Source: an uncultured Lysobacterales bacterium (GTDB lineage: Bacteria; Pseudomonadota; Gammaproteobacteria; Xanthomonadales; SZUA-36). From it: 64,000 nucleotides of DNA. The notes beneath the pieces are model-generated. The model made no database searches. It saw only the letters and a program-made list of their open reading frames with translations, and was not told where the DNA came from. The translations under genes and the position numbers were made by a program. Positions 5,163-25,028 of this stretch are shown here, in pieces; positions within the stretch are counted from its first letter, which is position 1; the number at the start of each line of letters is the position of its first letter. The DNA lies in NCBI GenBank assembly GCA_937924405.1, contig CALDVW010000041.1, positions 1 to 64,000 of the forward strand, written 5' to 3'.

Positions 5163-5618
5163 CTAGTCCGTTACATCAAGCACGACAACGGGGATTTGGC
5201 GATCGGTTGCCGCCTGGTAATCGACGTATGGAGGATAAATTTCCACCAGTTTCTGCCAAAGTTCTTCCCGCTCTTCACCATCGGCAATGCGGGCCCTGAC
5301 GTGAAAATGATCATGGGCTACCTGTATGTCACAGTCCGGGTTTTCCACCAGGTTCAGGTACCAGGCCGGGTGACTTGGTGCGCCGCCCTTTGACGCAATG
5401 ATGACGTAACCACCATTCGCTTTTCGGTAAATCAGCGGCAAGGTTCTGATTTCCCCCGACTTGCGTCCCCTGGTGCTTAGCAGCAGTACAGGCAGGATGC
5501 CGGGGCCTCCGACTGCTGTTGAGTCCCAGTCGTGCCCTTTTTCGGGATCTGTTCTGTAGAGTTCCAGGTGGTCACTGATCCAACCCGGCAGTTCTGTTGC
5601 GGTCTTGTCATTACTCAT
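5163..5618 (-). CDS. F420-dependent nitroreductase-family (Ddn-like, FDOR-A) protein
   Basis: This 151-residue protein carries the hallmarks of the deazaflavin (F420)-dependent Ddn family (PF04075): LLLSTRGRKSGEIRTLPLIY, then YVIIASKGGAPSHPAWYLNL, then NPDCDIQ. These segments form the split beta-barrel pocket that binds F420. Known members transfer hydride from F420H2 to quinones, nitro compounds or enones. It is the last gene of the left-hand catabolic operon, 15 bases after the CoA-transferase B gene. Complete F420 biosynthesis genes lie about 18 kb away in the same window, so the cofactor is probably available. The substrate is unknown; reducing an enone intermediate of the pathway is a reasonable guess. 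Confidence 0.88.
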   Translation of the reverse strand: MSNDKTATELPGWISDHLELYRTDPEKGHDWDSTAVGGPGILPVLLLSTRGRKSGEIRTLPLIYRKANGGYVIIASKGGAPSHPAWYLNLVENPDCDIQVAHDHFHVRARIADGEEREELWQKLVEIYPPYVDYQAATDRQIPVVVLDVTD

Positions 5619-5633
5619 GTGTGTTTAACTCCT

Positions 5634-6461
5634 TTACGTATGGTGCCGGAACTCTCTCTTTCTCATGCCATCCGGATCTATTGATTGCCGGATCAGATCG
5701 ACCTGCACTTGCGTCGGCGCCTTGGTGTTGGGAACCGGATCTTCCGGCAGCAATAAGTCGAACCCTGTCTTGGCCTGAACTTCTTCCAAACTGGTGCCGG
5801 GATGAACCGACTTCAAGCGCATCTTCTTACTGACGGGATGGAAATCCATCACGGCCAGGTTGCTGACAACGAGTTGCGGCCCACCCTCCAGGCCCAGCCG
5901 CTGGCGGGCGTCACCACCGTCGAGGTAGCCGGCGGCGCTTCTGAAATCCACTTTTTCCACCATGGACCGCACCGAATGATTCGGATTCCAAAAGTACAGC
6001 TTCTTGCCGATGGAGCCCATGTCCGCCAGGCCCGCGGTTCCGGGCAGCCTCACTCGTGGTGCATGGTAGTCGGTACCAATGACGGAGTTGTTGGCATTAC
6101 CGTACTGGTCCAATTGGGCGGCGCCCACGCAAAACTTCTTGATCCACCGGCCGTTCAGGACGAAATTCCAGAAGTCAGTGTACTGGTCGATATACATGAT
6201 GGAATCCCGCCAGAGTGGGGCTTCGAGGGTAGAAGCGGGTATCCGGTCCGGCCTGGGATCCAGGCCGCCGGAGCTGGCCAGCCAGATCAGATCCGGCGCA
6301 TGAGTCAATCGCGCCAGCATGAATGCGGCCACCGGGATGAAAGAAGCCATTCCGTTGGTGGTCTGGTCTCCGTTGTGAAACTGGTCTGCCAGTACGCTGA
6401 CCATCAGTTCATCCACGGAATAATCGGCGGCGTCGGGACTGTTGCGCCAGTCACTGCCCAT
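5634..6461 (-). CDS. CoA-transferase family beta subunit (IpdB-like)
   Basis: This 275-residue protein belongs to the class I CoA-transferase beta-subunit family near glutaconate CoA-transferase B and mycobacterial IpdB. Visible family segments include QFHNGDQTTNGMASFIPVAA, ASSGGLDPRP and GGPQLVVSNLAVMDF. In steroid-degrading bacteria IpdAB is not a transferase: it hydrolytically opens the last ring of the steroid C/D remnant (COCHEA-CoA). The start at 6461 overlaps the alpha-subunit stop as TGATG and has the ribosome site GGGAGGAAA. The frame is open to 6605 but that is inside the alpha gene. Pairing with a MenB/EchA20-like crotonase in this locus favours the IpdB reading over a simple transferase. 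Confidence 0.82.
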   Translation of the reverse strand: MGSDWRNSPDAADYSVDELMVSVLADQFHNGDQTTNGMASFIPVAAFMLARLTHAPDLIWLASSGGLDPRPDRIPASTLEAPLWRDSIMYIDQYTDFWNFVLNGRWIKKFCVGAAQLDQYGNANNSVIGTDYHAPRVRLPGTAGLADMGSIGKKLYFWNPNHSVRSMVEKVDFRSAAGYLDGGDARQRLGLEGGPQLVVSNLAVMDFHPVSKKMRLKSVHPGTSLEEVQAKTGFDLLLPEDPVPNTKAPTQVQVDLIRQSIDPDGMRKREFRHHT

Positions 6462-7351
6462 CAGTTTTCCTCCCATCGCGAAACTTTCTCCAGAACGGGC
6501 TTGCCACCTGCCGCGTCGAGGTATTCCTGCTGTGTGCCGGGTACGAGAACATGGCGCTCGATAAAAGCAGTCGTCGCTTCCTGGTCCCGCGAGACTTTGG
6601 TCCACGCGCGATGAAATCGGCTGTCATAACCGTAATTGGGGGGGAAAGAAGTCGGATGGGCGCCGTAAGGCACCTCGATTATCGCATCGACCATGAAGCC
6701 GGGCAGGATCGTGCGGTCCGGGTGGCGGCGCAGCATATCACTGTCAACGATTTCCTCCACGGAGACGATTACTTTCTTGGCCGCTTTCGGCATGATGCCG
6801 ATGTCGGGCCACAGTACGGTGGGCTCATACTGAATGTTCCCGAACCGGTCCGCCCGGTGCGCGTGAATCAGGGCCACGTCCGGTACCAGAGCCCGGCAAG
6901 CAAGTACCGGAAATCCGCCAAAAGGATCATCCAGCATTTTCAGATTGTCCGGATTCAGCGCAATCAGATCACTTCCGATGCCACCACGGGTCGGCAGGAA
7001 GGGCAGGTTGCGGGCGCCGGCCCCGAGCCGGGCGTTGAGGATGGTCTCTGATATTTCCTCGACCCTGATGCGGCCGTGCTCAACGGCTTTGCGGTATTGC
7101 TGACACAGGCCGAATTGTTCCATCGAAACCGCGGCGCCGATCAGGCGGTTGATGACGCCTGTGGCAGCCAGCCAGTCCACAGCCATGCCGCCCACCAGTA
7201 CGACCAGACCAAGTTGCCGTTTATCCTGGCGGATCAGTTCTCGCACCAGCGCCATGGGTGCCGCCTGGGTGGCCATGTTTTGCAGAGCCACCACGTCTCC
7301 ATCCTTCACCAGGGTGATGGCTTCCGCCAGCGATTTGATTTTTTCCATCAT
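6461..7351 (-). CDS. CoA-transferase family alpha subunit (IpdA-like)
   Basis: This 296-residue alpha subunit of the class I CoA-transferase/IpdA family partners the downstream beta gene, with a one-base junction. Visible family features are KDGDVVALQNM near the N-terminus, the glycine-rich LGLVVLVGGMAVDWL, and FLPTRGGIGSDL. ATG 7351 is chosen, 5 bases after the SDR stop. A TTG at 7360 overlapping that stop is the alternative and would add three residues. Family knowledge: in the mycobacterial enzyme the alpha subunit carries catalytic glutamate chemistry for retro-Claisen ring opening. Whether this pair transfers CoA or opens a ring cannot be settled from sequence alone. Confidence 0.82.
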   Translation of the reverse strand: MMEKIKSLAEAITLVKDGDVVALQNMATQAAPMALVRELIRQDKRQLGLVVLVGGMAVDWLAATGVINRLIGAAVSMEQFGLCQQYRKAVEHGRIRVEEISETILNARLGAGARNLPFLPTRGGIGSDLIALNPDNLKMLDDPFGGFPVLACRALVPDVALIHAHRADRFGNIQYEPTVLWPDIGIMPKAAKKVIVSVEEIVDSDMLRRHPDRTILPGFMVDAIIEVPYGAHPTSFPPNYGYDSRFHRAWTKVSRDQEATTAFIERHVLVPGTQQEYLDAAGGKPVLEKVSRWEEN

Positions 7352-7356
7352 GGAGT

Positions 7357-8145
7357 TCAAACCATGAAAGAACCGTTTTGTGGCAGCAGGGCGCCGCCAT
7401 CCACCACCAGGGTCTGTCCAGTCACATAGCCGGCTTCGTCACTCGCCAGATACAACATCGCATGTGCGATTTCTTCCGGCTCACCCCACCGTTTCAAAGG
7501 TACGTAGCGGGCCATCAGTTCGCTGCGCTCCTGCGACAGGACCTTATTCACACCCGGGGTCATGACCAGCCCGGGTTCCACGCCGTTCACAGTGACTTTG
7601 TAGCGGGCCAACTCCATTGCGGCGGATCTGATCAACCCATTCAGGCCGGCTTTTGAAGCTGCGTAATGGGCGCAGCCAGGCACGGCTACATGATTTCCCT
7701 GTACCGACGAAGTAAAAAGCACCCGGCCGGATCCGCGCGACTTCATGGCCGGTAAGCAGCCTTTGGTCAGCCGGTAGGCAGCGGTTAGATTCACATTGAT
7801 GACCTCGTTCCAGGAATCGTCGTCCATCTCTTCCAGTGGTTTGTACGGAAAAATACCGGCGTTGTGCACCAGAATATCGATCTTGGCGAATTTCTTCTGC
7901 GCCCCCGAGATCAGCTGACCTGTTCCGGTCGCGGTGCCGATGTCGGCCACGATGCCTTCGGCCAGGCCACCTTCGCGTCTGATGCTTTCAACCACGCGGG
8001 CTACATTTGCCTCGCTACGCGCATTTACCACGACCTGCGCCCCTTCAGCCGCGAACAGGCAGGCAATGGCTTCACCGATGCCTTGCCCGGCCCCGGTTAC
8101 GATAGCCACCTTCCGGTCCAGGCGCCTGTTGGCCGCTGCTTTCAT
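7357..8145 (-). CDS. Short-chain dehydrogenase/reductase
   Basis: This 262-residue classical SDR has the cofactor motif TGAGQGIG, the structural NNAG equivalent as HNAG, the catalytic Ser in LFTSSVQG, and YAASK for the Tyr/Lys pair, followed by DGGALLP near the C-terminus. It oxidises a hydroxyl or reduces a ketone with NAD(P)(H) in the cytoplasm. It directly precedes the IpdAB-like pair, the position where a beta-hydroxyacyl-CoA or ring-hydroxyl dehydrogenase (IpdF/IpdC-like role) is expected in steroid C/D ring breakdown. Alternatives are any 3-oxoacyl reductase role. The 92-base gap upstream is the widest in the left operon and could hold an internal promoter. Confidence 0.85.
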   Translation of the reverse strand: MKAAANRRLDRKVAIVTGAGQGIGEAIACLFAAEGAQVVVNARSEANVARVVESIRREGGLAEGIVADIGTATGTGQLISGAQKKFAKIDILVHNAGIFPYKPLEEMDDDSWNEVINVNLTAAYRLTKGCLPAMKSRGSGRVLFTSSVQGNHVAVPGCAHYAASKAGLNGLIRSAAMELARYKVTVNGVEPGLVMTPGVNKVLSQERSELMARYVPLKRWGEPEEIAHAMLYLASDEAGYVTGQTLVVDGGALLPQNGSFMV

Positions 8146-8237: not shown

Positions 8238-8729
8238 TCAACCTTCGGGCGCACTCATCTGCGCGCCGGGAACAGGATTGAAGTAGTGGATGACAACGTG
8301 TCGCCTGGCGATTTTCCAGACACCCCCGCGCCGCTCGAAGTCGTCGCTGTAGGTTGCGCTGATCATCTGTACAATGTCATCCGCGGTGGCGCCCATGCAA
8401 TCGACATTGCACACGCCGCTGGCGTGATCGGCGTCGTGGAAAGTCAGCCGCAGGTTCGAAGTCAGATGATGCGTCTCGCGCCAGACCGGATAGAGGATGT
8501 CGAAGACTGCTTCACGGATGCCTTCGTGATTATTGAAAGTACCGAAAGGCGCTCCGATTTCCCAGATCGCATCAGGATGCCAGATCGAGATGAAGCGGTC
8601 CCAGTCATGGTTGTCGAAGCCAAGGCAGTAGTCGGTCACCAGGTCGCGCAGGGCGGCCCTGCTTTCCAGTTCGTCGATGCGGCTGGTCAGGGCGGCAATC
8701 TGTGTTTGAAGATCGTTGTGGTCATTCAT
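8238..8729 (-). CDS. NTF2/SnoaL-like protein
   Basis: This 163-residue protein has an N-terminal coiled-coil-like helix (LQTQIAALTSRIDELESRAA) followed by a SnoaL-like cone fold: LVTDYCLGFDNHDWDRFISI, then HPDAIWEI, then HHLTSNLRLTF. Members of this superfamily act as isomerases, dehydratases, cyclases or ring-hydroxylase small subunits, including ketosteroid isomerase. The start at 8729 follows GAAGGACTTAATC. The frame reaches 8771, but that would overlap the cytochrome gene without its own ribosome site. A second NTF2-like protein is in the right arm (19080-19493), so the pathway probably uses two such steps or subunits. The reaction is not known. Confidence 0.75.
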   Translation of the reverse strand: MNDHNDLQTQIAALTSRIDELESRAALRDLVTDYCLGFDNHDWDRFISIWHPDAIWEIGAPFGTFNNHEGIREAVFDILYPVWRETHHLTSNLRLTFHDADHASGVCNVDCMGATADDIVQMISATYSDDFERRGGVWKIARRHVVIHYFNPVPGAQMSAPEG

Positions 8730-8740
8730 GATTAAGTCCT

Positions 8741-9118
8741 TCAATTCTGTAGTGCCCCCTGCTCGATCCACAACCGGATCGTTTCGATCTGGCCGGGGTC
8801 AAGGGGCGGTTGCTGAATGGGCATCAGCCTGCCCGAGCCACCAACCGATTCCCCTGAATCGATCAGCTTGATGTACAGGTAGCTATTGTCGGGAGCGCCC
8901 GGGTCGACAAGAGGCAGCGGGCTCTGGTCTGACGGAATGCCAACCACGCGGGCCCAGGCATCCGGATAGAGACCCAGCCCGCCCTGCTCGGAGCCGGGCA
9001 GGTGACACATCACGCAATAGCTGTTCAGGATCGGCATTACATCGTCTTGAAAACCGATATTTTCCGCCTGAGCGGTGCCGATGAGCGGCGCCAGCATAAA
9101 CGGAAGCCATCGCATCAT
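8741..9118 (-). CDS. Small secreted c-type cytochrome
   Basis: This 125-residue protein has a signal peptide (MMRWLPFMLAPLIGTAQA) and a single haem-attachment motif CVMCH at about residues 35-39, with LMP around residue 100 as a candidate distal methionine. It would be a periplasmic monohaem cytochrome c. It lies 9 bases downstream of the Tat-signal flavoprotein gene and 11 bases before the NTF2-like gene, and so is very likely co-transcribed with them. The obvious role is taking electrons from that flavoprotein to the respiratory chain. The motif and signal are visible; the partnership is inferred from position. Confidence 0.8.
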   Translation of the reverse strand: MMRWLPFMLAPLIGTAQAENIGFQDDVMPILNSYCVMCHLPGSEQGGLGLYPDAWARVVGIPSDQSPLPLVDPGAPDNSYLYIKLIDSGESVGGSGRLMPIQQPPLDPGQIETIRLWIEQGALQN

Positions 9119-9127
9119 GAGCTTTTG

Positions 9128-10873
9128 TCAGGCTTTGTCCAGCGGTTCAAGATGCGCTGCGTTTGCGGCGATGTAGCCAAAGGTCATCGACAGGCCCAGC
9201 GTATGGCCGGCGCCCCAGTATGCTTCTCCGGATGGGCTGGCGATGCAGTTGCCTGCTCCATAGAGTCCGGGGATAGGCTGGTCTTCGGTATCCAGCACCC
9301 GGGCGCTGGCATCGATGGCCGGGCCGCCACAGGTGTCGAGAGCACCTGCTGCGAGAATCAGGGCATAGAACGGACCCTCGTCGCGAAACGGGTGCATGGT
9401 TATGTTCGGCCCCGGGTTTGCCGGCCATTCACTGTCTGCCTTCATCGGGGAGAATACCTGGTGCCACTCGGTATCATAAGCTGCCTGACCGCGCTGAAAG
9501 TCACCGTCTATTCCGGATTTTGCGTAACCATTGAAGCGTTCAAGTGTATTTTTCAGGTTGGACGCAAAGGACGGCCCAAGGGAAACTCCCCCTGTCTGTT
9601 TTGCGACTTCAGACAGACGCCGATCGATATCGGACGCCAGTTCTTCAAGCGAATTGCCTTTAAGCACCTGGCTTGCAGTGTTTGAATCAGCAGGTATCGG
9701 GTACACGCCCGCGAAGCCTTCTGCGGTTCTCTGGTCATAGACCATGAACAGCAACTGGTTGGGAAACTCCGCCTGTGATGCATCGTAGATGCCGTGCACC
9801 TCGGTACGGTCGTTGTAATTCCGGTTTTCATTGACTACCCGGACGCCGTGCCGGTTGACCTGGACCATGGAATCACCCGGCGGAAAAAATACACCGGCTG
9901 CCAGTTTCGAACTCTGCAGCGCTTCTTCGAGCATGATCTGCGTGCGCCACGCACTAGACATGATCCCCATACGGGCGCCGGCGGCTCCGGCAATATTGAT
10001 GAAATCTCCGGTGGCCCAGGGCATGGCGCAGGAACCCCACAGGCGACTGGGTTGGTACATGCCAAGAAATTCCGGGTTGTGGACGTAGCCGCCCGTGGCA
10101 AAAATTGCTGCCTTGCGTATTCGTATCCTGACTTTCGCATCACCCGACTCTGCCTCCACTCCCGCTACACGGCCGTCCGGGTTCAGAATCAGCCGCATGG
10201 CGCGGTGATTGGTCAGTATCGGAATTTTTCGTTCCTTCACGGCGCTGGTCAGTTGCGTCATCAATTCAGGCCCGCCGCCCATGCTCCCGTCATCTTTCAA
10301 GGGCCCGAGCGCGCGGCCTGCCGGGACTTTGTTTTCCGGTACATGGTCAAGGTAGTCCGTCGCAGGCCGGTCGAGAAAGAACATACGCCATTCACCCAGT
10401 TTGAGTGCACCATGGCCGCGTAAGCTGTCGGCCGCACCGGATGCGTTGTCATAGAAGGCTTCCAGTAGTCCGAACTCACGTGTGGAAAGGCCCAGTTGCG
10501 CGTCGGCCGGGTTGAATTTTTCGGGGTAGGAATAGCGCGCCAGGTATCTCAGGCAGTCTTCTTTTTTATCCGTAATGCCCTTTTCCCTGAGCGTGAAATT
10601 ATCGGGTATCCACAGTACACCGGCAGATTTCGCAGAGGTGCCCCCGGTGATGGGTGCTTTTTCGATCACCAGGACCGCATCACCGTTTTCATGTGCCGTG
10701 ATCGCTGCAGTCGCCGCGCCCACGCCGCTGCCGACTACCAGGATATCCGTCTCATGATCCCAGTTGATGGCTGCTTCAGCCCTTGAAGAACGTAATGTGA
10801 TAACGCCCAGCGACAGGGCGCCGGCGCCTGCAATGGCCTGTCTTCGAGTTATGCCTTGCCGGTTTTTACCCAT
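9128..10873 (-). CDS. Tat-exported FAD-dependent dehydrogenase, KstD/fumarate-reductase-like
   Basis: This 581-residue flavoprotein has an N-terminal twin-arginine signal (RRQAIAGAGALSLGVI; R10-R11), then the FAD dinucleotide-binding motif DILVVGSGVGAA (about residues 43-54) followed by E-K and GGTSAKSAGV. The C-terminal FAD segment is GLYGAGN and then GAGHTLGLSMTFGYIA, which closely follows the pattern in 3-ketosteroid-delta1-dehydrogenases and related FAD dehydrogenases. Length fits the family. Export is unusual for KstD, which normally works in the cytoplasm. Together with the adjacent cytochrome it suggests periplasmic dehydrogenation of the incoming substrate. The start follows GGAGAAGGCAA. 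Succinate/fumarate-type or urocanate-type reductases are alternative relatives. Confidence 0.82.
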   Translation of the reverse strand: MGKNRQGITRRQAIAGAGALSLGVITLRSSRAEAAINWDHETDILVVGSGVGAATAAITAHENGDAVLVIEKAPITGGTSAKSAGVLWIPDNFTLREKGITDKKEDCLRYLARYSYPEKFNPADAQLGLSTREFGLLEAFYDNASGAADSLRGHGALKLGEWRMFFLDRPATDYLDHVPENKVPAGRALGPLKDDGSMGGGPELMTQLTSAVKERKIPILTNHRAMRLILNPDGRVAGVEAESGDAKVRIRIRKAAIFATGGYVHNPEFLGMYQPSRLWGSCAMPWATGDFINIAGAAGARMGIMSSAWRTQIMLEEALQSSKLAAGVFFPPGDSMVQVNRHGVRVVNENRNYNDRTEVHGIYDASQAEFPNQLLFMVYDQRTAEGFAGVYPIPADSNTASQVLKGNSLEELASDIDRRLSEVAKQTGGVSLGPSFASNLKNTLERFNGYAKSGIDGDFQRGQAAYDTEWHQVFSPMKADSEWPANPGPNITMHPFRDEGPFYALILAAGALDTCGGPAIDASARVLDTEDQPIPGLYGAGNCIASPSGEAYWGAGHTLGLSMTFGYIAANAAHLEPLDKA

Positions 10874-10914
10874 TTGCCTTCTCCTGTATCAATAGCAGGC
10901 CCGGGGCGGGAATG

Positions 10915-12576
10915 CTAACGCTGCAGTTCGATTCCCGCTGCTTCCCGGTCCCAGCAGTCTGCCGTGATACCTTCTTTCTTCAGTTTGAATTTCTCGACAC
11001 GCTCACTGGGCGTTTTGGGCATGCTGTCCCGAATGGCTATGTAACGCGGTATCGCGAAATAGGCCATGCGCGGTTCACACCAGCGGATCAATTCTTCTTC
11101 GGTCACCTGGTGGCCTTCTTTAAGCACGACGACTGCTTTGACTTCTTCTTCGCCCAGGTCTGAAGGCACTCCCACGGCGCAGGATTCAAGAACTGCCTCG
11201 TGTGAGCTGATCACGGTTTCAACCTCGAAGGAGGAGATGTTTTCCCCCCGGCGCCGGATCGCCTGCTTTTTTCGGTCCACGAAGAAGAAGTAGCCATCCT
11301 CGTCCATGCGCCCGAGATCACCGGTGTGAATCCAGCCGTTACTGAACAAATCCAGCGTGGCTTCGGGCTTGTTGTAGTAACCCGTGGTGCCCACGAACAT
11401 CTTGTTTGATCGCGCGATGAACTCACCCAGGCTGCCGGGTTTGCATTCATTGTCGTCGTCATCGACGATGCGCACATCCCAGCCGGTGATGGGCTTGCCG
11501 CAGGCCCCGGCACGGGGCTCGTCATAGGGGCTGACCAGGCAGCAATAACATTCGGTCATGCCGTAAACTTCGAGAATCTTGGTGTTGAAGCGGTCCTGGA
11601 AAGCATGCCATTCATCTTGCGGGGCCGCTGCTCCAACCATCAACCGGACCGGGTTGTCACCGTCATCTTCGCTTTCTTCCTGTTTCAGCAGAATCGGGAT
11701 GATGCCGCCGATGTAATTGGCCTCGGTACAGTTCCAGCGACGGCAATCGTCCCACAACCGGCTGGCGGAAAAGCGCTCGACAATCACAGCCTTGGCATCC
11801 GCCAGGATGGCGGGGCCGATGGTGATGCCCTGGGCGTTACCGTGGAAAAACGGCAGACCGGTATAGAGAACGTCGTCCTCGGTATAGCGTGAATACCTGA
11901 CGGATTCTGCCCAGATGTCATACCAGTAGTGATGGCTGAACATCACCCCTTTGGATACGCCCGTCGTGCCGGAAGTGTAGAGGATGGTCGCGAGATCGCT
12001 GTAATGCACATTCACATCCGGCGTGTCGGAAGAATGGTCCATCAACTCCGGGAAGGTGAGGTGTTCGAAACCCGCCCATTGCGGTATTGTTTCGCCGGTC
12101 CCGGCGGAGTCCGTGTAGGCGATGTGGCGAATTTCCTCCAGGTCGCCGGCAATGCCCTCGAGGCGGTCCAGGTACTGCAGGTCGGCCGCCAGCGCAACGC
12201 AGTCCGACTGCACCATCTGATAGGCCAGGCCCTGCCCCTTGAGTGCAACATTGATCGGCACTTCGACGGCGCCGATTTTATTGAGGGCAAACCATGCGTA
12301 AAGGAATTCCGGAGAATTTGGCAGCATCAGGGCAACCTTGTCGCCGTGCTTCACGCCCATTGACAGGAAACCGTTGGCCGCCTTGTTGATGCTTTCGTTC
12401 AGTTCGCCCAGCGTGATCGGATCATCCCTGAACTGGAACACGACGTGGTCAGGGTACTGCCTGGCCTTGTCTTCGATGATGCTGGTCAGAACCCGGTCAT
12501 GTTGGGCATATTCCTGCATGTTCCAGGATTCCCACTTCTTCGCGTGGCGCTCGAACTTGTCATCCCATCGGCCCAT
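10915..12576 (-). CDS. Acyl-CoA synthetase (AMP-forming, FadD/CaiC-like)
   Basis: This 553-residue ANL-family ligase has the ATP-binding P-loop YTSGTTGVSKGV (residues 200-211), the A5-type motif VYGMTECY, GWIHTGDLG with the ribose-binding Asp, and the hinge DRKKQAIRRRGENIS. The C-terminal lysine region reads PKTPSERVEKFKLKK, slightly divergent from the common PRT-GK pattern. It should activate a carboxylic acid to its CoA thioester, initiating the catabolic route. It starts 3 bases after the PPOX-family gene stop. Its position beside a TonB receptor and IpdAB-like genes supports a bulky carboxylate, comparable to FadD3 in steroid metabolism, but substrate class cannot be read from the sequence. 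Confidence 0.88.
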   Translation of the reverse strand: MGRWDDKFERHAKKWESWNMQEYAQHDRVLTSIIEDKARQYPDHVVFQFRDDPITLGELNESINKAANGFLSMGVKHGDKVALMLPNSPEFLYAWFALNKIGAVEVPINVALKGQGLAYQMVQSDCVALAADLQYLDRLEGIAGDLEEIRHIAYTDSAGTGETIPQWAGFEHLTFPELMDHSSDTPDVNVHYSDLATILYTSGTTGVSKGVMFSHHYWYDIWAESVRYSRYTEDDVLYTGLPFFHGNAQGITIGPAILADAKAVIVERFSASRLWDDCRRWNCTEANYIGGIIPILLKQEESEDDGDNPVRLMVGAAAPQDEWHAFQDRFNTKILEVYGMTECYCCLVSPYDEPRAGACGKPITGWDVRIVDDDDNECKPGSLGEFIARSNKMFVGTTGYYNKPEATLDLFSNGWIHTGDLGRMDEDGYFFFVDRKKQAIRRRGENISSFEVETVISSHEAVLESCAVGVPSDLGEEEVKAVVVLKEGHQVTEEELIRWCEPRMAYFAIPRYIAIRDSMPKTPSERVEKFKLKKEGITADCWDREAAGIELQR

Positions 12577-12579
12577 GAC

Positions 12580-13182
12580 TTAACTCACCGACAGATCAAG
12601 CTGCGCCTGGCTCATGTACTTGTTGACCAGCTTCTGGCTTTCGCCGTACCAAACACCTTCGTCGTGCGCCTCCAGCATCTTACCGAGGTCCCAGGTCATG
12701 ATCTTCTCGGGCACGACCTCGATGATGCAGCGCAGCGGCGTGTGCACGGCTTCGAAGGCCGCAGCACGCTCTTCGTCCGTGGTCAGCTCGAAGAAATACT
12801 TGTCGATGATCTGCCAGTGAATCTCGCGCATCATCTCGTCGTCGTCGTGGATGACCGCCTGACCCATGACCAGGATAGCTTTCTGATGCCGGACATTGGT
12901 GCCGTCATTGTGGACGGCGACCGTGATCTTCGGGTTCTCCATCAGGCAGCCCACCTTGAGGCGGTAGTTCTTGATCGTGCTCATCATGATGTTGTCATTC
13001 TTGATGACGTAGAACATCGGGGATACGACCGGGTAGCCTCTCTTGTTGACGTGGGCCATGTTGCAATAGGCGTTTCCGCGGTAGAGCAGTTCGAACTCGT
13101 CCTCTTCCATCGGGTAATCCTGGGCTACTCTGAGTTGCTCGAGTCTGACTGGGTCAAATTTGGGTTTTGGTGCGTCCGACAT
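12580..13182 (-). CDS. PPOX/FDOR-B split-barrel flavin- or F420-binding protein
   Basis: This 200-residue protein of the pyridoxamine 5'-phosphate oxidase-like split-barrel superfamily contains VNKRGYPVVSPMFYVIKND, then MMSTIKNYRLKVGCLMENPK and ITVAVHND. This is the strand-turn pattern shared by FMN-, haem- and F420-binding members; the KRG-P-VSP and K-rich T-KN-R segments resemble FDOR-B F420 proteins. The start at 13182 follows AAGGAG at an 8-base spacing. The frame extends to 13236 without a ribosome site. It is the first gene after the TonB receptor, separated by a hairpin. With the F420 genes in this window, an F420H2-dependent reductase is a fair reading, but FMN use is not excluded. 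Confidence 0.75.
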   Translation of the reverse strand: MSDAPKPKFDPVRLEQLRVAQDYPMEEDEFELLYRGNAYCNMAHVNKRGYPVVSPMFYVIKNDNIMMSTIKNYRLKVGCLMENPKITVAVHNDGTNVRHQKAILVMGQAVIHDDDEMMREIHWQIIDKYFFELTTDEERAAAFEAVHTPLRCIIEVVPEKIMTWDLGKMLEAHDEGVWYGESQKLVNKYMSQAQLDLSVS

Positions 13183-13215
13183 GTGAATTGCTCCTTTTGA
13201 ATCAAGATCGCCAAA

Positions 13216-13244
13216 CCGCATCGGCGCTGATTGCACCGATGCGG
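13216..13244 (-). terminator. Hairpin between the TonB receptor and the PPOX gene
   Basis: CCGCATCGG (13216-13224) and CCGATGCGG (13236-13244) form a perfect 9-base-pair stem with an 11-base loop. On the minus strand it is followed only by a short T run (GCGGTTTGG), so it is a weak terminator or an mRNA-processing/stabilising hairpin. It would let the receptor transcript accumulate above the downstream catabolic genes. Confidence 0.6.
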
Positions 13245-13273: not shown

Positions 13274-15556
13274 TTAAAATCTGAAGCCTACCTCCAGACC
13301 ATAAGTGCGCGGTGCGCGTGGTGCTGCATAGGACCACAGGCCTGCAACGTCGAATCCAATCTGGTAGCCGTCCTCTCCGCCCAGATTGCGGCCGAACAGG
13401 CTGAAGTACCAGTCGCCGTAATAGTAATTGATCGAGCCATCGATCAAGTTCTGCGATTTGTTGTGCAGTTCCGGCTTATTGGCAAAATCAACTTCGTGCG
13501 CACCAAGATAACGCCAACCGGCCCGGATCAGCATCTGGCCCGCACCCACGGCCCATTCGTAAGAGCCATCAATGCTGAAAGTCGTTTCCGGTGCACGCCT
13601 GAAATCCAGGCCGGAGAAGTCCGTAATTACCGGGTCATCCGTTGTGCCGGTGTTGACCAGGAAATCATCATAGCTGGCGTCCAGTAATCCAAGATTTGAG
13701 CGAATGGTCAACCCTTCCGTGGGCAGCCACATCAATTCGAACTCAGCGCCCTTGATCGTTGCACTGGCGGCATTGACCACACGAGTCACCTGGCCGGTGC
13801 CGCTGGTTTCGGAAGGCTGCTGGATTTCTTCCTGCTTATCCTGATAATCCATGTAGAAAACAGTTGCGTTGAAAATCACGGTACGATCTGCCCACTCCGA
13901 CCGATAGCCAAGCTCATAGTTGTCCACTGTTTCGGGGTCATATGGTATGGTCGCTGTCTCAACGCTGTCGACACGTCCGTTGAAGCCTCCTGCACGGTAT
14001 CCATTTGAATACAATCCGTAGATCATCGAAGCATCGTCAATGGTGTACTTCAGAGCAACCTTGGGTGTGAATTCGTCCCACTTGGCGTTCGCCGCACCTA
14101 CTGTAATGCCGGACTGGTCCGTGGTTTTCTTGTCTTCCGTCCAGCGCCCGCCTAGGGTCAGAGTCCATGCGTCGTTGAAGGAATAATCACCTTCGAAGAA
14201 CAGGGCCTTGGACTTGCTGGTCTGTTTGGTTGTCTGCGGCAGATCCAGCACGATGCCCGGGACCGCGAAACCGATGTAGCTCCGCAATCTGATCTCGTAC
14301 TCGGAGTCCCAGTAATATCCGCCCACCGTGTAGGCCAATTTTCCGCCGGCATCGTAAGTCAGGCGCAATTCATGCGTCGTTTGTTCATATTCCGATGGCC
14401 GATCTGTATGAAATAGTACGTCTGTCACCGCGTCCCAGTCGTTAACCACGGTTTCCTCCGTTTCCCAAATACCGCCGATGTAGTCAATCCGGTAATCGTC
14501 GTTAATGTCCCAACGGGCTTCGAGCTGGTTGGTATCGGCGTCGAAAGTTGCATCATCACAATCGGTGGGTGCTTCGTAGCCAGGCGGAACCCATGGGATG
14601 TCAGGATCGGGAATGGGGATGGTTGCCCCGTCCCCACACTCTCTCAGGATGTCATAGCGATCTCCTGAAACCGGTGTTTCTATATTTGGTGAGCACCAGC
14701 CAAATAAATCACAGAACAACTGGCCGGGCTGGCCAGCATTCAACAGAGGCGGTGAGTCCTGGTCGGTTCTTTCGGCCAGGTAGGTCCATTCAAGTTCAAG
14801 GCCTTGAGTAGGTGCCCAGAGCACATTAATACCACCCGAGGTGTACTTGTACTGGCCATCCTTTCTTCCTGTATTGAGGTTTGTGTAGAAACCCTCGTCC
14901 TGGTTACGATATGCGCCGCTCAGTTTGACACCGAACGTATCGCCATTGCCGAAATTGATTATTCCATCGACCACGCTGGTATCATAATTGCCGTAGCTTG
15001 CCCGAACTTTGCCTCCGAATTCCATTGTCGGCTTGGTTCTTTCCATGATGATGACGCCACCGATGGTATTGCGGCCAAACAGGGTTCCCTGGGGCCCGCG
15101 CGCAACTTCCATTCTTTCCAAATCGATCGCTCTCTCGATACTGCCCGTCATCGTGCCGCGGAATATCCCATCGATTACCACACCGACCGCAGGATCGAAG
15201 TTTTTCTCAACTTCGGAAACGCCGATACCGCGAATGTAGGCAGCAGCCACACCGCCCGGTCCCTGGTTGGTGTCATCGAGTACTGTATTGGGGGAAATAT
15301 AGATCAGGTCACGCACATCGGTGGCAAATGCTGTTTCAATTTCCTTCGTCCCCATCGCACTCACGGACAAAGCGACTTCCTGAAGGTTTTCGACCCGCTT
15401 GCGGGCAGTAACTGTAATTTCTTCAAGTTCTGTGGATTCGTTTCTGGCTTCAGCATCCTCCTCCTGCGCAAGCACCAGAGTCGGTGTGATTAGAATGAAA
15501 CCTGCCAAAATGCAGATGGCCGTAATCAAGATTTTTGCGCTTTTCATGTGCTTCAT
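13274..15556 (-). CDS. TonB-dependent outer-membrane receptor
   Basis: This 760-residue receptor has a signal peptide (hydrophobic core about residues 10-30), a TonB box with the following start of the plug at residues 45-53 (EEITVTARK), plug-domain segments such as NQGPGGVAAAYIRGIG and RGPQGTLFGRNTIGG, and a C-terminal barrel ending in LEVGFRF with a terminal Phe. It takes up a large or scarce compound across the outer membrane using TonB energy. This receptor type (IroN/FyuA-like annotated but often a hydrocarbon or sterol importer) commonly leads degradation loci. Two starts are possible: 15556 (GGAG only 2-3 bases upstream) or 15547 (GGAG about 11 bases upstream). It reads from the divergent promoter shared with the crotonase operon. 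Confidence 0.92.
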   Translation of the reverse strand: MKHMKSAKILITAICILAGFILITPTLVLAQEEDAEARNESTELEEITVTARKRVENLQEVALSVSAMGTKEIETAFATDVRDLIYISPNTVLDDTNQGPGGVAAAYIRGIGVSEVEKNFDPAVGVVIDGIFRGTMTGSIERAIDLERMEVARGPQGTLFGRNTIGGVIIMERTKPTMEFGGKVRASYGNYDTSVVDGIINFGNGDTFGVKLSGAYRNQDEGFYTNLNTGRKDGQYKYTSGGINVLWAPTQGLELEWTYLAERTDQDSPPLLNAGQPGQLFCDLFGWCSPNIETPVSGDRYDILRECGDGATIPIPDPDIPWVPPGYEAPTDCDDATFDADTNQLEARWDINDDYRIDYIGGIWETEETVVNDWDAVTDVLFHTDRPSEYEQTTHELRLTYDAGGKLAYTVGGYYWDSEYEIRLRSYIGFAVPGIVLDLPQTTKQTSKSKALFFEGDYSFNDAWTLTLGGRWTEDKKTTDQSGITVGAANAKWDEFTPKVALKYTIDDASMIYGLYSNGYRAGGFNGRVDSVETATIPYDPETVDNYELGYRSEWADRTVIFNATVFYMDYQDKQEEIQQPSETSGTGQVTRVVNAASATIKGAEFELMWLPTEGLTIRSNLGLLDASYDDFLVNTGTTDDPVITDFSGLDFRRAPETTFSIDGSYEWAVGAGQMLIRAGWRYLGAHEVDFANKPELHNKSQNLIDGSINYYYGDWYFSLFGRNLGGEDGYQIGFDVAGLWSYAAPRAPRTYGLEVGFRF

Positions 15557-15675: not shown

Positions 15676-15797
15676 TGTTTCCACAGAATACGAAGAATTG
15701 TCAAGCATCGAGTGAGTGAAGCCGCGGTGGATTTCCTCCAGGATTGTTTGTCTTGAAATTCCCGGATTTATCGCTGGAAACAAGAGTTGAGGACAGA

Positions 15798-16571
15798 ATG
15801 TCAGATATCGAAGTTGAACGAAAGGGCGAGGTTGAATGGATTCGCCTGAACCGACCGGACCGTATGAATGCTTACGATGCGGAAATGGCGGGGGAACTCA
15901 TTGATGCCGTTGAGAACGCGTCTGATGCCGGTGTGATCGTTTTAACCGGAACAGGCCGGGCATTTTGCGCGGGTGGCTATCTGGCCAATCTGAGCGACCC
16001 GGACCCCGAGGCGCTCAGGAGCATGTTCTACGGATCCCTGAAAGTTTACGAGTCGCTCCGAACCAGCCCTCGCCCGGTTATAGCGGCAGTCAACGGCGCG
16101 GCAGCTGGTGGCGGTAATGAATTGGTAGTGGCCTGCGACATCGCGATAGCCGCCGAAAAAGCCACCTTTGGACAAACCGGAGTGAAGGTCGGCAGCGCAC
16201 CGGTGCTGGGAGGAACCAATTTCCTGAGCATGAGTGTTGGTGAAAAGCGCGCCAAGGAAATCGCCTTCATGTGTCGGCGCTACCCGGCAAAAGAAGCATT
16301 GGAGATGGGCTTGATCAATGCGGTTGTTCCCGCTGAGCAACTTGAAGATGAGGTGACGAAGTGGGCGGATGAGTTGCTCTATATGAGTCCCCGCTACCTG
16401 GAAATCGCCAAGATCAGTTCCAATGTGTGGTGGAATCAGTGTCGCGACAATTACCTCAGCGGTCTGGCCATGCTGGTGCAGGCGATCGGATCAGCGGACA
16501 TGATCGAAGGCGCATCGGCCTTCATGGAAAAAAGAAGGCCACAGTTCCAGGGACGCAAAAAACAACCATGA
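15798..16571 (+). CDS. Crotonase-family ring hydrolase (MenB/EchA20/BadI-like)
   Basis: This 257-residue crotonase has FCAGG at the first oxyanion-hole segment and NGAAAGGGNELVVACD at the second. The region FGQTGVKVGSAP and then RAKEIAFMCRRYPAKEALEMGLIN is the MenB-type signature, where canonical enoyl-CoA hydratases differ. MenB-like crotonases form or break rings by Claisen chemistry: MenB closes naphthoate, BadI opens 2-ketocyclohexanecarboxyl-CoA, EchA20 opens the steroid D-ring remnant. No other menaquinone genes are here, so ring opening in catabolism is the better reading. The ATG at 15798 follows TTGAGGACAG. The frame back to 15744 has no ribosome site. The stop overlaps the next gene by ATGA. 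Confidence 0.82.
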   Translation: MSDIEVERKGEVEWIRLNRPDRMNAYDAEMAGELIDAVENASDAGVIVLTGTGRAFCAGGYLANLSDPDPEALRSMFYGSLKVYESLRTSPRPVIAAVNGAAAGGGNELVVACDIAIAAEKATFGQTGVKVGSAPVLGGTNFLSMSVGEKRAKEIAFMCRRYPAKEALEMGLINAVVPAEQLEDEVTKWADELLYMSPRYLEIAKISSNVWWNQCRDNYLSGLAMLVQAIGSADMIEGASAFMEKRRPQFQGRKKQP

Positions 16572-17698
16572 ATTTTGAGCTCGACGAGCCATACCTAGCG
16601 ATCCAGCGGCAAGCCAGGGATTTTGCCTGTGCAATTGAGCCACTGGCAACGGAAGCGGATGAAATGAGCGAAATTCATCCCGGCGTGCTCACTGCGCTAA
16701 GAGAAAGTGGCTTAAGTGATCTGATGGTACCCGCCGAATACGGCGGTCGCACAAAGCGGCTCGATCCGCTGGCGATTTGCATTGTTCGGGAAGTTTTAAT
16801 GGCCACTTCGGCCCATGCTGATTCGATGTTTGCCCTGCAGGGGATAGGCAGTTATGCCATCACGGTAGCGGGCACAGCGGAGCAGCGTCAGCAGTGGTTG
16901 CCCAGGGTCGCCGCGGCCGAAGTTTTGCCGGCCCTGGCCCTGACCGAACCGGACGCCGGTTCGGATCTTAAGTCGATCACAACAGAAATCACCCCCGGGG
17001 CTGATGGCCTGCTGTTGAATGGGACAAAATCCTATATCTCAAATGCGGGCGCCGCGGCGTTCTATGTCGTGTTTGCCCGTGAAGATTCCGGATTTTCCAT
17101 GCTTCTTGTTCCGGCAGATGCTGCCGGAGTCTCGGTAACACCCACGCCGGAATTGATTGCACCTCACGTTCTGGGTGATGTCAGGTTTGACAACGTCAGA
17201 TTGTCACCTGATGCACGTCTGGGCAATCCCGGGCAGGGGCTGAACCTGGTGCTGGCTACCCTGGGTGTTTTTCGCGTCTCCGTTGCAGGGGCCGCCGTGG
17301 GTCTGGCCCAGGCCGCACTGGAAGAAGCCGTGCGGCACACACGTACCAGGGTGCAATTCGGCCGGCCACTGGCCCGCCTGGGTCCGGTAGCGCAAATGCT
17401 GGCAGATTGCTGGACCGAGGTCGAAATGACCCGGCTGCTCACGTACCGGGCAGCCTGCCTTGCCGTGAATGATCCTGCGGCTTCCCTGAACCACTCTTCG
17501 ATGGCGAAACTGGCAGCCAGTGAAGCCGCGTCACGGGTCGTGGACCGCTGTGTCCAAATGATGGGTAGATATGGCCTGGTGAGGGATTCCAAGATCGAGC
17601 GCCTGTACCGGCAGGCCCGGCCGATGCGAATTTACGAAGGCGCGTCTGAAGTACTGCGGCTTGGCATTGCCCGTCAGCTAACGGAAGAAGTCCGGTGA
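16568..17698 (+). CDS. Acyl-CoA dehydrogenase
   Basis: This 376-residue enzyme of the FAD-dependent acyl-CoA dehydrogenase family has ALTEPDAGSDL in the middle domain, GTKSYISNAG, then TRVQFGRPLARL and the C-terminal IYEGASEVLRLGIARQL, in which the Glu of YEG is the usual catalytic base. It would introduce an alpha,beta double bond in a CoA thioester. It overlaps the preceding crotonase stop by ATGA and the next SDR start by GTGA, so the three are translationally coupled. The long frame upstream of 16568 lies within the crotonase gene and is not used. In steroid degraders such enzymes (FadE types) may work as heteromers; only one subunit is seen here. Confidence 0.92.
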   Translation: MNFELDEPYLAIQRQARDFACAIEPLATEADEMSEIHPGVLTALRESGLSDLMVPAEYGGRTKRLDPLAICIVREVLMATSAHADSMFALQGIGSYAITVAGTAEQRQQWLPRVAAAEVLPALALTEPDAGSDLKSITTEITPGADGLLLNGTKSYISNAGAAAFYVVFAREDSGFSMLLVPADAAGVSVTPTPELIAPHVLGDVRFDNVRLSPDARLGNPGQGLNLVLATLGVFRVSVAGAAVGLAQAALEEAVRHTRTRVQFGRPLARLGPVAQMLADCWTEVEMTRLLTYRAACLAVNDPAASLNHSSMAKLAASEAASRVVDRCVQMMGRYGLVRDSKIERLYRQARPMRIYEGASEVLRLGIARQLTEEVR

Positions 17699-23037: not shown

Positions 23038-23997
23038 TCAGGAAACGGCTTTAATTTTGTGCGCCATCTCCAGGCAGGTCCGGGCCAGTTGCACGCGGTC
23101 CTCCAGCGACACCATTACGGTGTTCTTTACCTCGACCGTTAAGCCCATGTTTTCAATTTCGGGCCGGAGTGCCTGGTCTGCAGTATCCAGGATAAATCCG
23201 TCGAGAAAATCCCGGTAATATTCCGCCACCCAGCTCGCTGAATTGGGTAGCGATAACTCTTGCATCATTTTGACGGTTGGTCCCTTGATTGCCGCCCCCC
23301 CAACCACCGGTGATACGGCGATGATGGGAGCAGGGCAGGTTCTCAGCTGTTCACGCAGGCCCGGCAGAGACAGGATCGGATCGACACTGACAAAAGGGTT
23401 CGATGGACAAAGGAAAACACCGGCAAGATCAGGGCGCGTCAGCCATGCTTCGATGTCCGGATGGGGCCGGGCCCGGTCAATGCCTTCGAACTCAAAACCA
23501 GTGACCGCCGGTGCGCATTTTTCGCGCACGAAATAATGCTGAAAATCCATCGGCCCCTGCGCGGTGAGAACGCGTGTATGCACCGGATCATCGCTCATCG
23601 GCAGTATGGTGTGCCTGATTCCCAGGGCTGTCGCCAATGCGGCGGTCACCTGGCTGAGCGTCTGGCCGGCTCTGAGCCGATAGCTCCGCTCGACGTTCAT
23701 GGCGAGGTCCCGGTCTCCCAGTGAAAACCAGGTTTCACCTCCGAGGGTCCCAAGCGCCTGCATGAAGTGCCAGGTTTCATCACTTCGTCCCCAGCCGGTT
23801 TCGGGATTGTTGAGCCCGGCAAGTGTGTAGACCAGCGTGTCGATATCCGGCGATATGTGCAGCCCGAGATGTTGAAAATCGTCACCCGTATTGACGATCA
23901 GGGCCAAATCATCCGCGCTTAGCAGCTGTGACAGTCCGAGGGCGAGTTTTGCGCCCCCAATACCACCCGTAAGAGCCAGGAAGCAGGATGTATTCAT
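23038..23997 (-). CDS. cofD: 2-phospho-L-lactate transferase (F420 biosynthesis)
   Basis: This 319-residue protein matches CofD/FbiA throughout: the N-terminal LTGGIGGAKLALGL, VNTGDDFQHLGLHISPDIDTLVYTL, CPSNPFVSVDPIL, and AVSPVVGGAAIKGPTVKMM. It joins the phospholactyl-, phosphoenolpyruvyl- or phosphoglyceryl-guanosine made by CofC to Fo, giving F420-0 or dehydro-F420-0 in the cytoplasm. It follows cofE by 10 bases on the same strand, and both face away from the cofC-cofG-cofH fusion gene. Confidence 0.96.
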   Translation of the reverse strand: MNTSCFLALTGGIGGAKLALGLSQLLSADDLALIVNTGDDFQHLGLHISPDIDTLVYTLAGLNNPETGWGRSDETWHFMQALGTLGGETWFSLGDRDLAMNVERSYRLRAGQTLSQVTAALATALGIRHTILPMSDDPVHTRVLTAQGPMDFQHYFVREKCAPAVTGFEFEGIDRARPHPDIEAWLTRPDLAGVFLCPSNPFVSVDPILSLPGLREQLRTCPAPIIAVSPVVGGAAIKGPTVKMMQELSLPNSASWVAEYYRDFLDGFILDTADQALRPEIENMGLTVEVKNTVMVSLEDRVQLARTCLEMAHKIKAVS

Positions 23998-24007
23998 GTC
24001 CGTATTC

Positions 24008-24772
24008 TCATAAGAACAGATCCTCAGCTACAGGGCGGAGACTGTCTCGTGCGGTTTGTGTCGTGTTTTTCACGTTCAATCCGCGCACCAGCGCGGCTGG
24101 AACGCGTTCGGAAGTTTCACCCATCATCAGCGTGGCTGCGGTGGCAATTGAGTCGGCATGGTTGGACAGGGTGACTTTCAATTCGCGGCCATAGATATCC
24201 GTGTCGCCGCGCCGGTCATCCAGCACCATTACCCCTGCGCTGCCGATCGCATAACCCAGTGTTCCCAGCCGCCAGGGTCGATTCATGCTGTCGCTCACTA
24301 TAACGCCCAGCCGCTGACCGGTTTTCTTCTCCAGCGCCTGCCGGAGACGGCGCGCGGACAGGTCAGGATCCGCCGGCAACAGCAGCGCGCATTCGCCCCC
24401 GGCATGATCGATATTCGACTGGTCAATCCCAGCATTGGCGCTGATGATGCCCAGGCGATGGCGCACAATGATCACCCCCGGCGCCTTGCGTATCACCTCG
24501 CTTGACTCACGCAGAATCAATTCGACCAGTCGCGGGTCCTTGTCGGTTTCCAATGCGAGGCTTACCGCAGCAGGAGAAGGATGGACGTCCTTGAGCAGCA
24601 CGGTGCAGCCTTCTGACTTGGAAACGACCTTCTGCGCCACGACCAGAATATCGTCATCCCGGAACTGCAGGCCTTGTCGCTCAAGCGCTGTTGGGATCAG
24701 CCGGGCAAGGTCATCTCCTTCGTGTACAAGAGGCAAGTCGGTAATGGGATATATGGTCAGGCTGTTGTGCAT
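24008..24772 (-). CDS. cofE: F420-0:gamma-glutamyl ligase
   Basis: This 254-residue protein matches CofE: DDILVVAQKVVSKSEG, RHRLGIISANAGIDQSN, SDSMNRPWRLGTLGYAIGSAGV and KVTLSNHADSIATAATLMMGE. It adds glutamates to F420-0. The length is that of a single-domain CofE. It lacks the C-terminal nitroreductase-like domain of actinobacterial FbiB, which reduces dehydro-F420-0, so a separate reductase elsewhere or a donor that avoids the dehydro form (2-phospholactate or 3-phosphoglycerate) is implied. It is the first gene of the minus-strand F420 unit. Confidence 0.96.
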   Translation of the reverse strand: MHNSLTIYPITDLPLVHEGDDLARLIPTALERQGLQFRDDDILVVAQKVVSKSEGCTVLLKDVHPSPAAVSLALETDKDPRLVELILRESSEVIRKAPGVIIVRHRLGIISANAGIDQSNIDHAGGECALLLPADPDLSARRLRQALEKKTGQRLGVIVSDSMNRPWRLGTLGYAIGSAGVMVLDDRRGDTDIYGRELKVTLSNHADSIATAATLMMGETSERVPAALVRGLNVKNTTQTARDSLRPVAEDLFL

Positions 24773-24901
24773 GTTTCAGTGGCCGCAGACGGGAAAATCA
24801 AGATCGGGTCGGGGTCGTCAATAGTACCGTTTTTCTAAGCCTGCACGCCATTAAATTTGCAACATTGTGCGCGGATCCTTGCATACTTGTTATTGATCTT
24901 C

Positions 24902-24920
24902 ATGGTATCTTTGATATCAT
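24902..24920. promoter_or_regulatory. Second palindrome in the F420 divergent promoter
   Basis: ATGGTATCTTTGATATCAT has 8-base arms with one mismatch around a TTT centre. It lies 10 bases from the TTGAAT palindrome, between cofE and the cofC fusion gene. It has the same 8-3-8 layout as the palindrome before ppk2 (33637-33655), but the sequence is unrelated. Confidence 0.45.
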
Positions 24921-24929
24921 CTTGGCTCC

Positions 24930-24944
24930 TTGAATTTTGTTCAA
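24930..24944. promoter_or_regulatory. Palindromic operator candidate, copy 2 (F420 divergent promoter)
   Basis: TTGAATTTTGTTCAA differs at one base from TTGAACTTTGTTCAA at 15661-15675 (preceded by C in both). It lies in the 256-base divergent region between cofE and the cofC-cofG-cofH gene, 85 bases from the latter start. The shared sequence and shared divergent-promoter setting suggest one regulator for F420 synthesis and the catabolic operons. Confidence 0.6.
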
Positions 24945-25028
24945 ATATGAAGGTCTTCAATAGGTGAATTCATACGGGTTTCAACACATCGAATTGCTGG
25001 CGACAAGCCACGATCAGGTTCTGCAAAA

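Follow-up and report, generated by a model that had tools for sequence, protein, structure and literature searches.

A probable two-component periplasmic ketone dehydrogenase, formed by a CDH-clade flavoprotein and a neighbouring c-type cytochrome, in an uncultured Lysobacterales bacterium

Cyclohexanone dehydrogenase (CDH) and 3-ketosteroid delta1-dehydrogenase (KstD) enzymes are sought for the production of unsaturated ketones and steroids, and no physiological electron acceptor for the CDH branch is given in the available text of PMC10966990 or in the literature found. Which partner would take the electrons from such an enzyme is the question raised by two adjacent genes in the window (the whole 64,000-nucleotide stretch analyzed here, positions 1 to 64,000 of contig CALDVW010000041.1, assembly GCA_937924405.1, from an uncultured Lysobacterales bacterium). 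The original prediction for this locus described a KstD-like flavoprotein with a twin-arginine (RR) signal, followed 9 bases away by a gene for a secreted CXXCH protein; both open reading frames (ORFs) were confirmed on the minus strand, with a spacer of 9 bases (9119-9127) between them. We consider it fairly likely that the pair makes up a periplasmic ketone dehydrogenase of two components, in which a flavin adenine dinucleotide (FAD) protein exported by the twin-arginine translocation (Tat) system would be re-oxidized by the adjacent cytochrome. The features of the pair are as follows:

9128-10873, minus strand: FAD-dependent ketone dehydrogenase of the CDH clade, 581 aa, Tat-type precursor (ORF, Pfam, CDH match and model)
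10877-10884, minus strand: GGAGAAGG, probable ribosome-binding site of the flavoprotein gene (by eye)
10772-10873, minus strand: putative Tat signal peptide, residues 1-34, containing ITRRQAIAGAGALSLGVITLRSSRAEA (cleavage taken from the A-x-A site; unfolded in the model)
10841-10846, minus strand: twin-arginine codons R10-R11 of the flavoprotein (ORF)
10028-10030, minus strand: codon of Cys282, aligned with Cys305 of CDH (alignment and CDH crystal structure)
8741-9118, minus strand: secreted monohaem c-type cytochrome, 125 aa, PSCyt1-like, putative electron acceptor (ORF, profile, homologues and model)
9002-9016, minus strand: haem-binding CVMCH, residues 35-39 of the cytochrome (ORF and homologue alignment)
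8822-8824, minus strand: codon of the invariant Met99, putative sixth haem ligand (homologue alignment)

The choice of start codon for the flavoprotein is backed by the presence of GGAGAAGG just upstream. From this start, the N-terminus MGKNRQGITRRQAIAGAGALSLGVITLRSSRAEA contains T-RR-Q-A-I, followed by a 16-residue uncharged run and the A-x-A site, and it satisfies a TATFIND-like rule (coded for this analysis) that was also satisfied by 12 of 10,000 sequences made by shuffling this N-terminus, which bears out the predicted RR signal. In the AlphaFold model (mean predicted local distance difference test score, pLDDT, 90.3), residues 1-34 score below 50 and the fold starts past them; the FAD_binding_2 match (Pfam, 4.1e-47) spans residues 43-559. 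The cytochrome begins with MMRWLPFMLAPLIGTAQA, judged by eye to be a general secretory (Sec) type signal, and has a single CXXCH motif, CVMCH, in agreement with the prediction of a secreted CXXCH protein. Because the CXXCH and the M99-P100 pair are unvaried in an alignment of 13 homologues, this protein likely carries one His/Met-ligated haem c. It narrowly misses the gathering score of PSCyt1 (PF07635; 19.5 vs. 22 bits), which a homologue, L099, passes at 23.2 bits. In a fold search with the cytochrome model (pLDDT 86.4), the top match is the hydrazine synthase alpha chain (Z 8.8, 110 aligned residues, 24% identity) and the next is FoxE; these matches would indicate a monohaem c-type domain, without pointing to a function.

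The flavoprotein had been labeled KstD-like, a name that holds only at the level of the fumarate reductase/succinate dehydrogenase flavoprotein superfamily; its membership is in the CDH clade. By sequence, the nearest characterized relative is CDH of Alicycliphilus denitrificans K601 (EC 1.3.99.14; 8AM3/8AM6/8AM8), with a score of ∼404 bits and 222 of 558 aligned residues identical, compared with 144 bits for KSTD1. The fold search agrees, since the match to CDH (Z 52.1, root-mean-square deviation 2.1-2.3, 529-531 residues aligned) exceeds those to the KstD structures 7p18, from Sterolibacterium denitrificans (Z 45.6), and 4c3x, KSTD1 (Z 43.8), with which the superfamily fold and the Tyr/Tyr/Gly chemistry are shared. 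All three NCBIfam KstD equivalog cut-offs are missed (NF009478, 261 vs. 789 bits; NF005882, 224.9 vs. 788; NF009479, 197.1 vs. 793), as is that of TIGR01813, for flavocytochrome c (146.7 vs. 285.45). The catalytic residues given for CDH, Tyr195, Tyr376, Tyr570, and Gly574 (PMC10966990, available text), correspond to Y174, Y353, Y552, and G556. In the CDH crystal, the Cys305 sulphur sits 1.84 A from FAD C8M, and its counterpart here is C282, whereas KSTD1 has Gly at this position. The pocket may differ in size from that of CDH: W113 at its mouth and F496 are replaced by Val86 and Trp470, which likely makes it wider, and because the W113A exchange opened the CDH pocket to a bulkier substrate (PMC10966990, available text), Val86, present here by nature, hints that the substrate is bulkier than cyclohexanone.

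The original prediction also set the exported flavoprotein against characterized enzymes that are cytoplasmic or membrane-associated. This contrast needs amending, as the deposited CDH sequence itself carries RRGFLRA and a hydrophobic run, an RR-type N-terminus like that of the flavoprotein. None of the terms signal, Tat, periplasm, cytochrome, and electron acceptor was found in the main text of PMC10966990, as available; the acceptor used in the CDH assays described there was DCPIP, an artificial dye.

The boundaries of the clade were examined in quick maximum-likelihood trees of 47 and 60 rows, with SH-aLRT as the support measure. In the 60-row tree, 46 rows, including CDH and the flavoprotein from the window, form one group (SH-aLRT 100) that leaves out KSTD1 together with 13 other paralogues; the branch separating the CDH clade from KSTD1 has a length of 0.89-0.95 and an SH-aLRT of 100 in both trees. 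Cys282 is kept in 45 of the 46 clade rows, the exception being L055 (Bradyrhizobium). Outside the clade, a Cys occurs at this position in 1/14 rows (L061) and a Tat-like signal in 1/14 (L066). Since members without a signal also keep the Cys, the FAD-contacting residue marks the clade rather than export.

Several members of the clade have altered genes. In Bradyrhizobium sp. Gha (L055/L013), the signal, Cys282, and two of the catalytic tyrosine positions are all lost, and the protein perhaps catalyzes an altered reaction. On plasmid pISP1 of Sphingomonas sp. MM-1 (L134, 5983-7923), a clade gene is truncated next to IS6100, near linA and linX of the lindane pathway, and the same form occurs in L081. 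In an Emcibacter metagenome-assembled genome (MAG; L014, 2448-4155), the flavoprotein gene is broken over two frames and the cytochrome gene downstream is retained.

A search for conserved pairing of the two genes, proposed with the original prediction, showed that a cytochrome neighbor recurs across the clade. The DNA downstream of the flavoprotein gene was inspected, and 38 of the 46 clade rows were counted; the remainder had unusable downstream DNA or cut genes (L024, L052, L056, L081, L134, and CDH, available as a protein sequence only) or a missing N-terminus (L020, with a cytochrome, and L050, without). A c-type cytochrome gene comes next in 22 of the 30 Tat-like rows with readable downstream DNA and in none of the eight signal-less rows (Fisher p 0.00026, a value that ignores relatedness). 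Three of the Tat-like rows (L098, L101, and L102) were assigned by eye after failing the rule, with Gly or Ala preceding the RR; under the strict rule, the counts are 19 Tat-like rows with a cytochrome and 8 without, and 3 non-Tat rows with a cytochrome and 8 without. As a control, no CXXCH ORF was found ≤450 nt downstream in 13 non-clade paralogue rows with sufficient sequence. Two C-terminal fragments, L039 (G021) and L060 (G070), were not counted and have no CXXCH gene within 1.5 kb.

The cytochrome partners belong to two families. PSCyt1-like partners occur in 16 rows, from gammaproteobacterial kin, Novosphingobium, Croceicoccus, an Emcibacter MAG, and others, and class-I cytochromes c in all seven CDH-type loci counted (e.g., Caballeronia sp. 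NK8 and Paraburkholderia sp. PGU19). The class-I cytochrome beside L084, located by tblastn, is 90% identical to that of L100, and the PSCyt1-like profile gives two class-I partners 9.6 and 3.8 bits, about what a shared CXXCH yields. Among the members without a signal, that of Shinella, sister to the CDH-type loci, has no cytochrome neighbor. On four Rhodococcus plasmids (L135, L144, L145, and L146), an unexported member is followed by a ferredoxin gene with a 4-nt overlap, and the member from R. koreensis has neither signal nor ferredoxin neighbor. The Rhodococcus plasmid clusters also hold genes for a Rieske protein, an NTF2-like protein, and an aldolase. Distant pairs are found in other contexts, in P450/Rieske clusters (Novosphingobium) and a hydroxyquinol cluster (Caballeronia); because these members sit in different pathways, it is the flavoprotein-cytochrome pair, and not the pathway, that is conserved.

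A number of observations weigh against a dedicated cytochrome acceptor. Corrected for kinship, the association of signal and cytochrome is not significant (five independent pairs, p ∼0.25), although on average 3.4 of the five run in the favored direction and none is opposed; the corrected test is consistent with an association and does not prove it. Rows are partly dependent (L100, L102, and L112 are close kin), and the sample leans toward kin of the flavoprotein because it was found by searching with this protein. Eight Tat-like members are unpaired (L090, L091, L049, L094, L105, L106, L107, and that of Aromatoleum aromaticum EbN1), of which L090, L091, L049, and L094 are closely related to the window sequence and share its cluster; L050 is also unpaired. 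In such signal-bearing members, the acceptor could be O2, quinone, or another cytochrome. For amine oxidoreductases, a Tat signal without a cytochrome gene mostly meant an oxidase (PMC12224317, available text), which makes O2 a possible acceptor for the unpaired relatives. In addition, the Cys is kept in signal-less members from Rhodococcus, Synergistaceae, and Shinella, and one cytochrome-paired member, L104, aligns without Tyr at the two catalytic positions that are also lost in L055, though it retains the signal, the Cys, and the neighboring cytochrome. The original prediction had counted relatives lacking both signal and cytochrome partner as evidence against itself; such relatives make up eight clade rows, in which the two are absent together.

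The possibility that unpaired members use a cytochrome encoded elsewhere was explored in 12 genomes in which an adjacent PSCyt1-like gene was unseen beside at least one clade gene or was cut off by a contig end. Matches were found in five of these. In G966, where three clade genes accompany one cytochrome gene that adjoins one of the three, the match is this adjacent gene; G012 and G063 have frames of 149 and 157 aa for similar cytochromes on other contigs, and G061 and G062 have weaker matches, mostly within long frames. As a general cause of unpaired rows, a cytochrome encoded elsewhere was therefore rejected, as it accounts for few.

Taken as a two-component periplasmic enzyme, the pair could work as follows. 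The flavoprotein would fold and acquire FAD in the cytoplasm, with the cofactor probably bound through Cys282, and would be exported in folded form by Tat. In the periplasm, it would desaturate a cyclic ketone beside the carbonyl: Tyr353/Tyr174 would abstract the alpha proton, the oxyanion would be held by Tyr552 and the amide of Gly556, and the beta hydride would pass to FAD N5. The Sec-exported monohaem cytochrome would then re-oxidize the reduced flavin, one electron per step, and hand the electrons onward, towards a terminal oxidase. Export by Tat and transfer of electrons to the neighboring cytochrome, as originally predicted, are favored because the Tat-like signal and the cytochrome neighbor recur and because the host genome encodes TatC and a cytochrome c assembly protein. 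The substrate is probably larger than cyclohexanone, within an alicyclic or terpenoid-like catabolic cluster, and the adjacent acyl-CoA ligase gene suggests that desaturation may precede CoA activation.

Extended to the whole clade, CDH included, the same idea describes Cys-tethered-flavin ketone desaturases that serve a genetically linked one-electron carrier, which would change with the compartment, from a PSCyt1-like or class-I cytochrome in Tat-exported members to a ferredoxin in cytoplasmic ones; we give this wider proposal slightly better than even chances. The pairing thereby supplies concrete acceptor candidates, two cytochrome families and one ferredoxin. If electrons do pass to such a cytochrome, ring desaturation of some alicyclic substrates takes place outside the inner membrane and enters the respiratory chain at cytochrome c. 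The recurrence of the pair in distant bacteria points to a likely natural electron partner for an enzyme family of industrial interest.

Precedents for a flavoprotein with a haem partner exist in other families. In p-cresol methylhydroxylase and flavocytochrome c sulfide dehydrogenase, a covalent FAD protein is joined to a c-type cytochrome subunit, and the flavoprotein families are unrelated to that of the window. The flavocytochrome c fumarate reductase and urocanate reductase share the FAD_binding_2 fold with the flavoprotein from the window; they have a periplasmic haem partner, in the form of a multihaem domain, and are reductases. The arrangement is paralleled by that of the NicA2/Pnao-CycN amine dehydrogenases, in which a Tat flavoprotein is likewise encoded next to a Sec cytochrome c; in the amine-oxidoreductase superfamily, a Tat signal together with an adjacent Sec-cytochrome gene predicts cytochrome-using dehydrogenases, a rule tested by kinetics (PMC12224317, available text). 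By analogy, the pair from the window probably works like these systems, although their flavoproteins are of an unrelated superfamily and oxidize C-N bonds, whereas C-C oxidation is expected here. No description of a flavoprotein-cytochrome pairing for CDH or KstD enzymes was found among open-licence PMC titles and the starts of abstracts.

Much of the gene order around the pair is found again in near relatives. The principal neighbors, assigned by profile match, are:

10915-12576, minus strand: acyl-CoA ligase (AMP-binding), directly upstream of the flavoprotein gene and a neighbor in near relatives as well
8238-8726, minus strand: SnoaL-like/NTF2 protein, directly downstream of the cytochrome gene
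7357-8145, minus strand: short-chain dehydrogenase
5634-7360, minus strand: two CoA-transferase-fold subunits (6461-7360 and 5634-6605), related to IpdAB, Gct, and AibAB (profile/sequence match)
12580-13236, minus strand: PNPOx-fold protein, with a weak F420-type match below cut-off
13274-15556, minus strand: TonB-dependent receptor, conserved in near loci
15744-17698, plus strand: divergent enoyl-CoA hydratase-family protein (15744-16571) and acyl-CoA dehydrogenase (16427-17698), in the same conserved cluster

The acyl-CoA ligase gene is conserved beside the flavoprotein gene in near gammaproteobacterial loci, and the divergent side also encodes a short-chain dehydrogenase, a TetR protein, a SnoaL protein, a MaoC-like protein, a thiolase, a DUF35-type protein, and an amidohydrolase. 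The CoA-transferase-fold pair scores between Gct, AibAB-type, and IpdAB-type entries: for subunit A, the IpdA and glutaconate CoA-transferase scores are equal, and subunit B favors glutaconate CoA-transferase. Subunit B aligns a Ser with a position that we take to be the catalytic Glu of glutaconate CoA-transferase, and because of this Ser it need not be a CoA-transferase. A pyrroloquinoline quinone (PQQ) dehydrogenase with a haem c domain lies in or near the same cluster in L092, L090, L091, L094, and L003. As an upstream step, a PQQ alcohol dehydrogenase was considered and set aside, since it is seen in the loci of near relatives and has no convincing copy in the host.

These neighbors bear on other explanations of the pair. 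An exported 3-ketosteroid delta1-dehydrogenase of a steroid degrader, with electrons passing to cytochrome c, would fit the common superfamily and the identical Tyr/Tyr/Gly positions, as well as the IpdAB-like CoA-transferase subunits, the Ltp2-ChsH2-like thiolase/DUF35 pair, and the EchA20-like neighbor; one CDH-clade gene is also plasmid-borne in Novosphingobium sp. ES2-1, an estrogen degrader. Yet the KstD cut-offs are missed by hundreds of bits, KSTD1 falls in a different branch, and the CoA-transferase scores are tied for subunit A and led by glutaconate CoA-transferase for subunit B. Further, PF19298 (KshA_C), the family of the 9-alpha-hydroxylase KshA that is expected in aerobic steroid degraders, has no match in the 90.47%-complete host genome, a result limited by a weak control set (1/14 matched, none over cut-off), and the single CDH/KstD-like gene of this genome has no second KstD-like companion. 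A steroid role is accordingly improbable.

A little less improbable, though still unlikely, is an exported ketone desaturase with O2 or the quinone pool as its electron acceptor, the cytochrome being an operon mate only and serving another step such as a quinoprotein alcohol dehydrogenase. The eight unpaired Tat-like rows, the haem-containing PQQ dehydrogenase of near relatives, and the prevalence of oxidases among Tat proteins without a cytochrome gene in another superfamily (PMC12224317, available text) speak for it. But the cytochrome directly follows the flavoprotein even in the unrelated pathways of Novosphingobium and Caballeronia, its family varies while its position is constant, and the host genome yielded no clear counterpart of the PQQ dehydrogenase of the relatives. 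The reverse flow, from the cytochrome to the flavin of a periplasmic reductase resembling the flavocytochrome c fumarate and urocanate reductases, we regard as very improbable. The superfamily is the same, TIGR01813 does match, and the fold search places urocanate reductase and flavocytochrome c3 among the structural relatives (Z 37-41); against this, the TIGR01813 score lies below its cut-off, the catalytic residues match those of CDH, for which dehydrogenase activity was assayed with DCPIP, the partner has a single haem in place of a multihaem domain, and the neighbors are catabolic, including the acyl-CoA ligase and enoyl-CoA hydratase-family genes.

Other features of the window lie in or beyond this cluster. 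An F420H2-dependent quinone reductase family protein is encoded within the catabolic cluster (5163-5618), and beside the cluster, at 23038-28241, are the F420 genes for CofD and CofE and a 1070-aa ORF in which CofC and radical-SAM/CofH domains are recognized. At 37201-39846, an 881-aa ORF combines a GCV_T aminomethyltransferase with a following serine hydroxymethyltransferase, in an apparent fusion.

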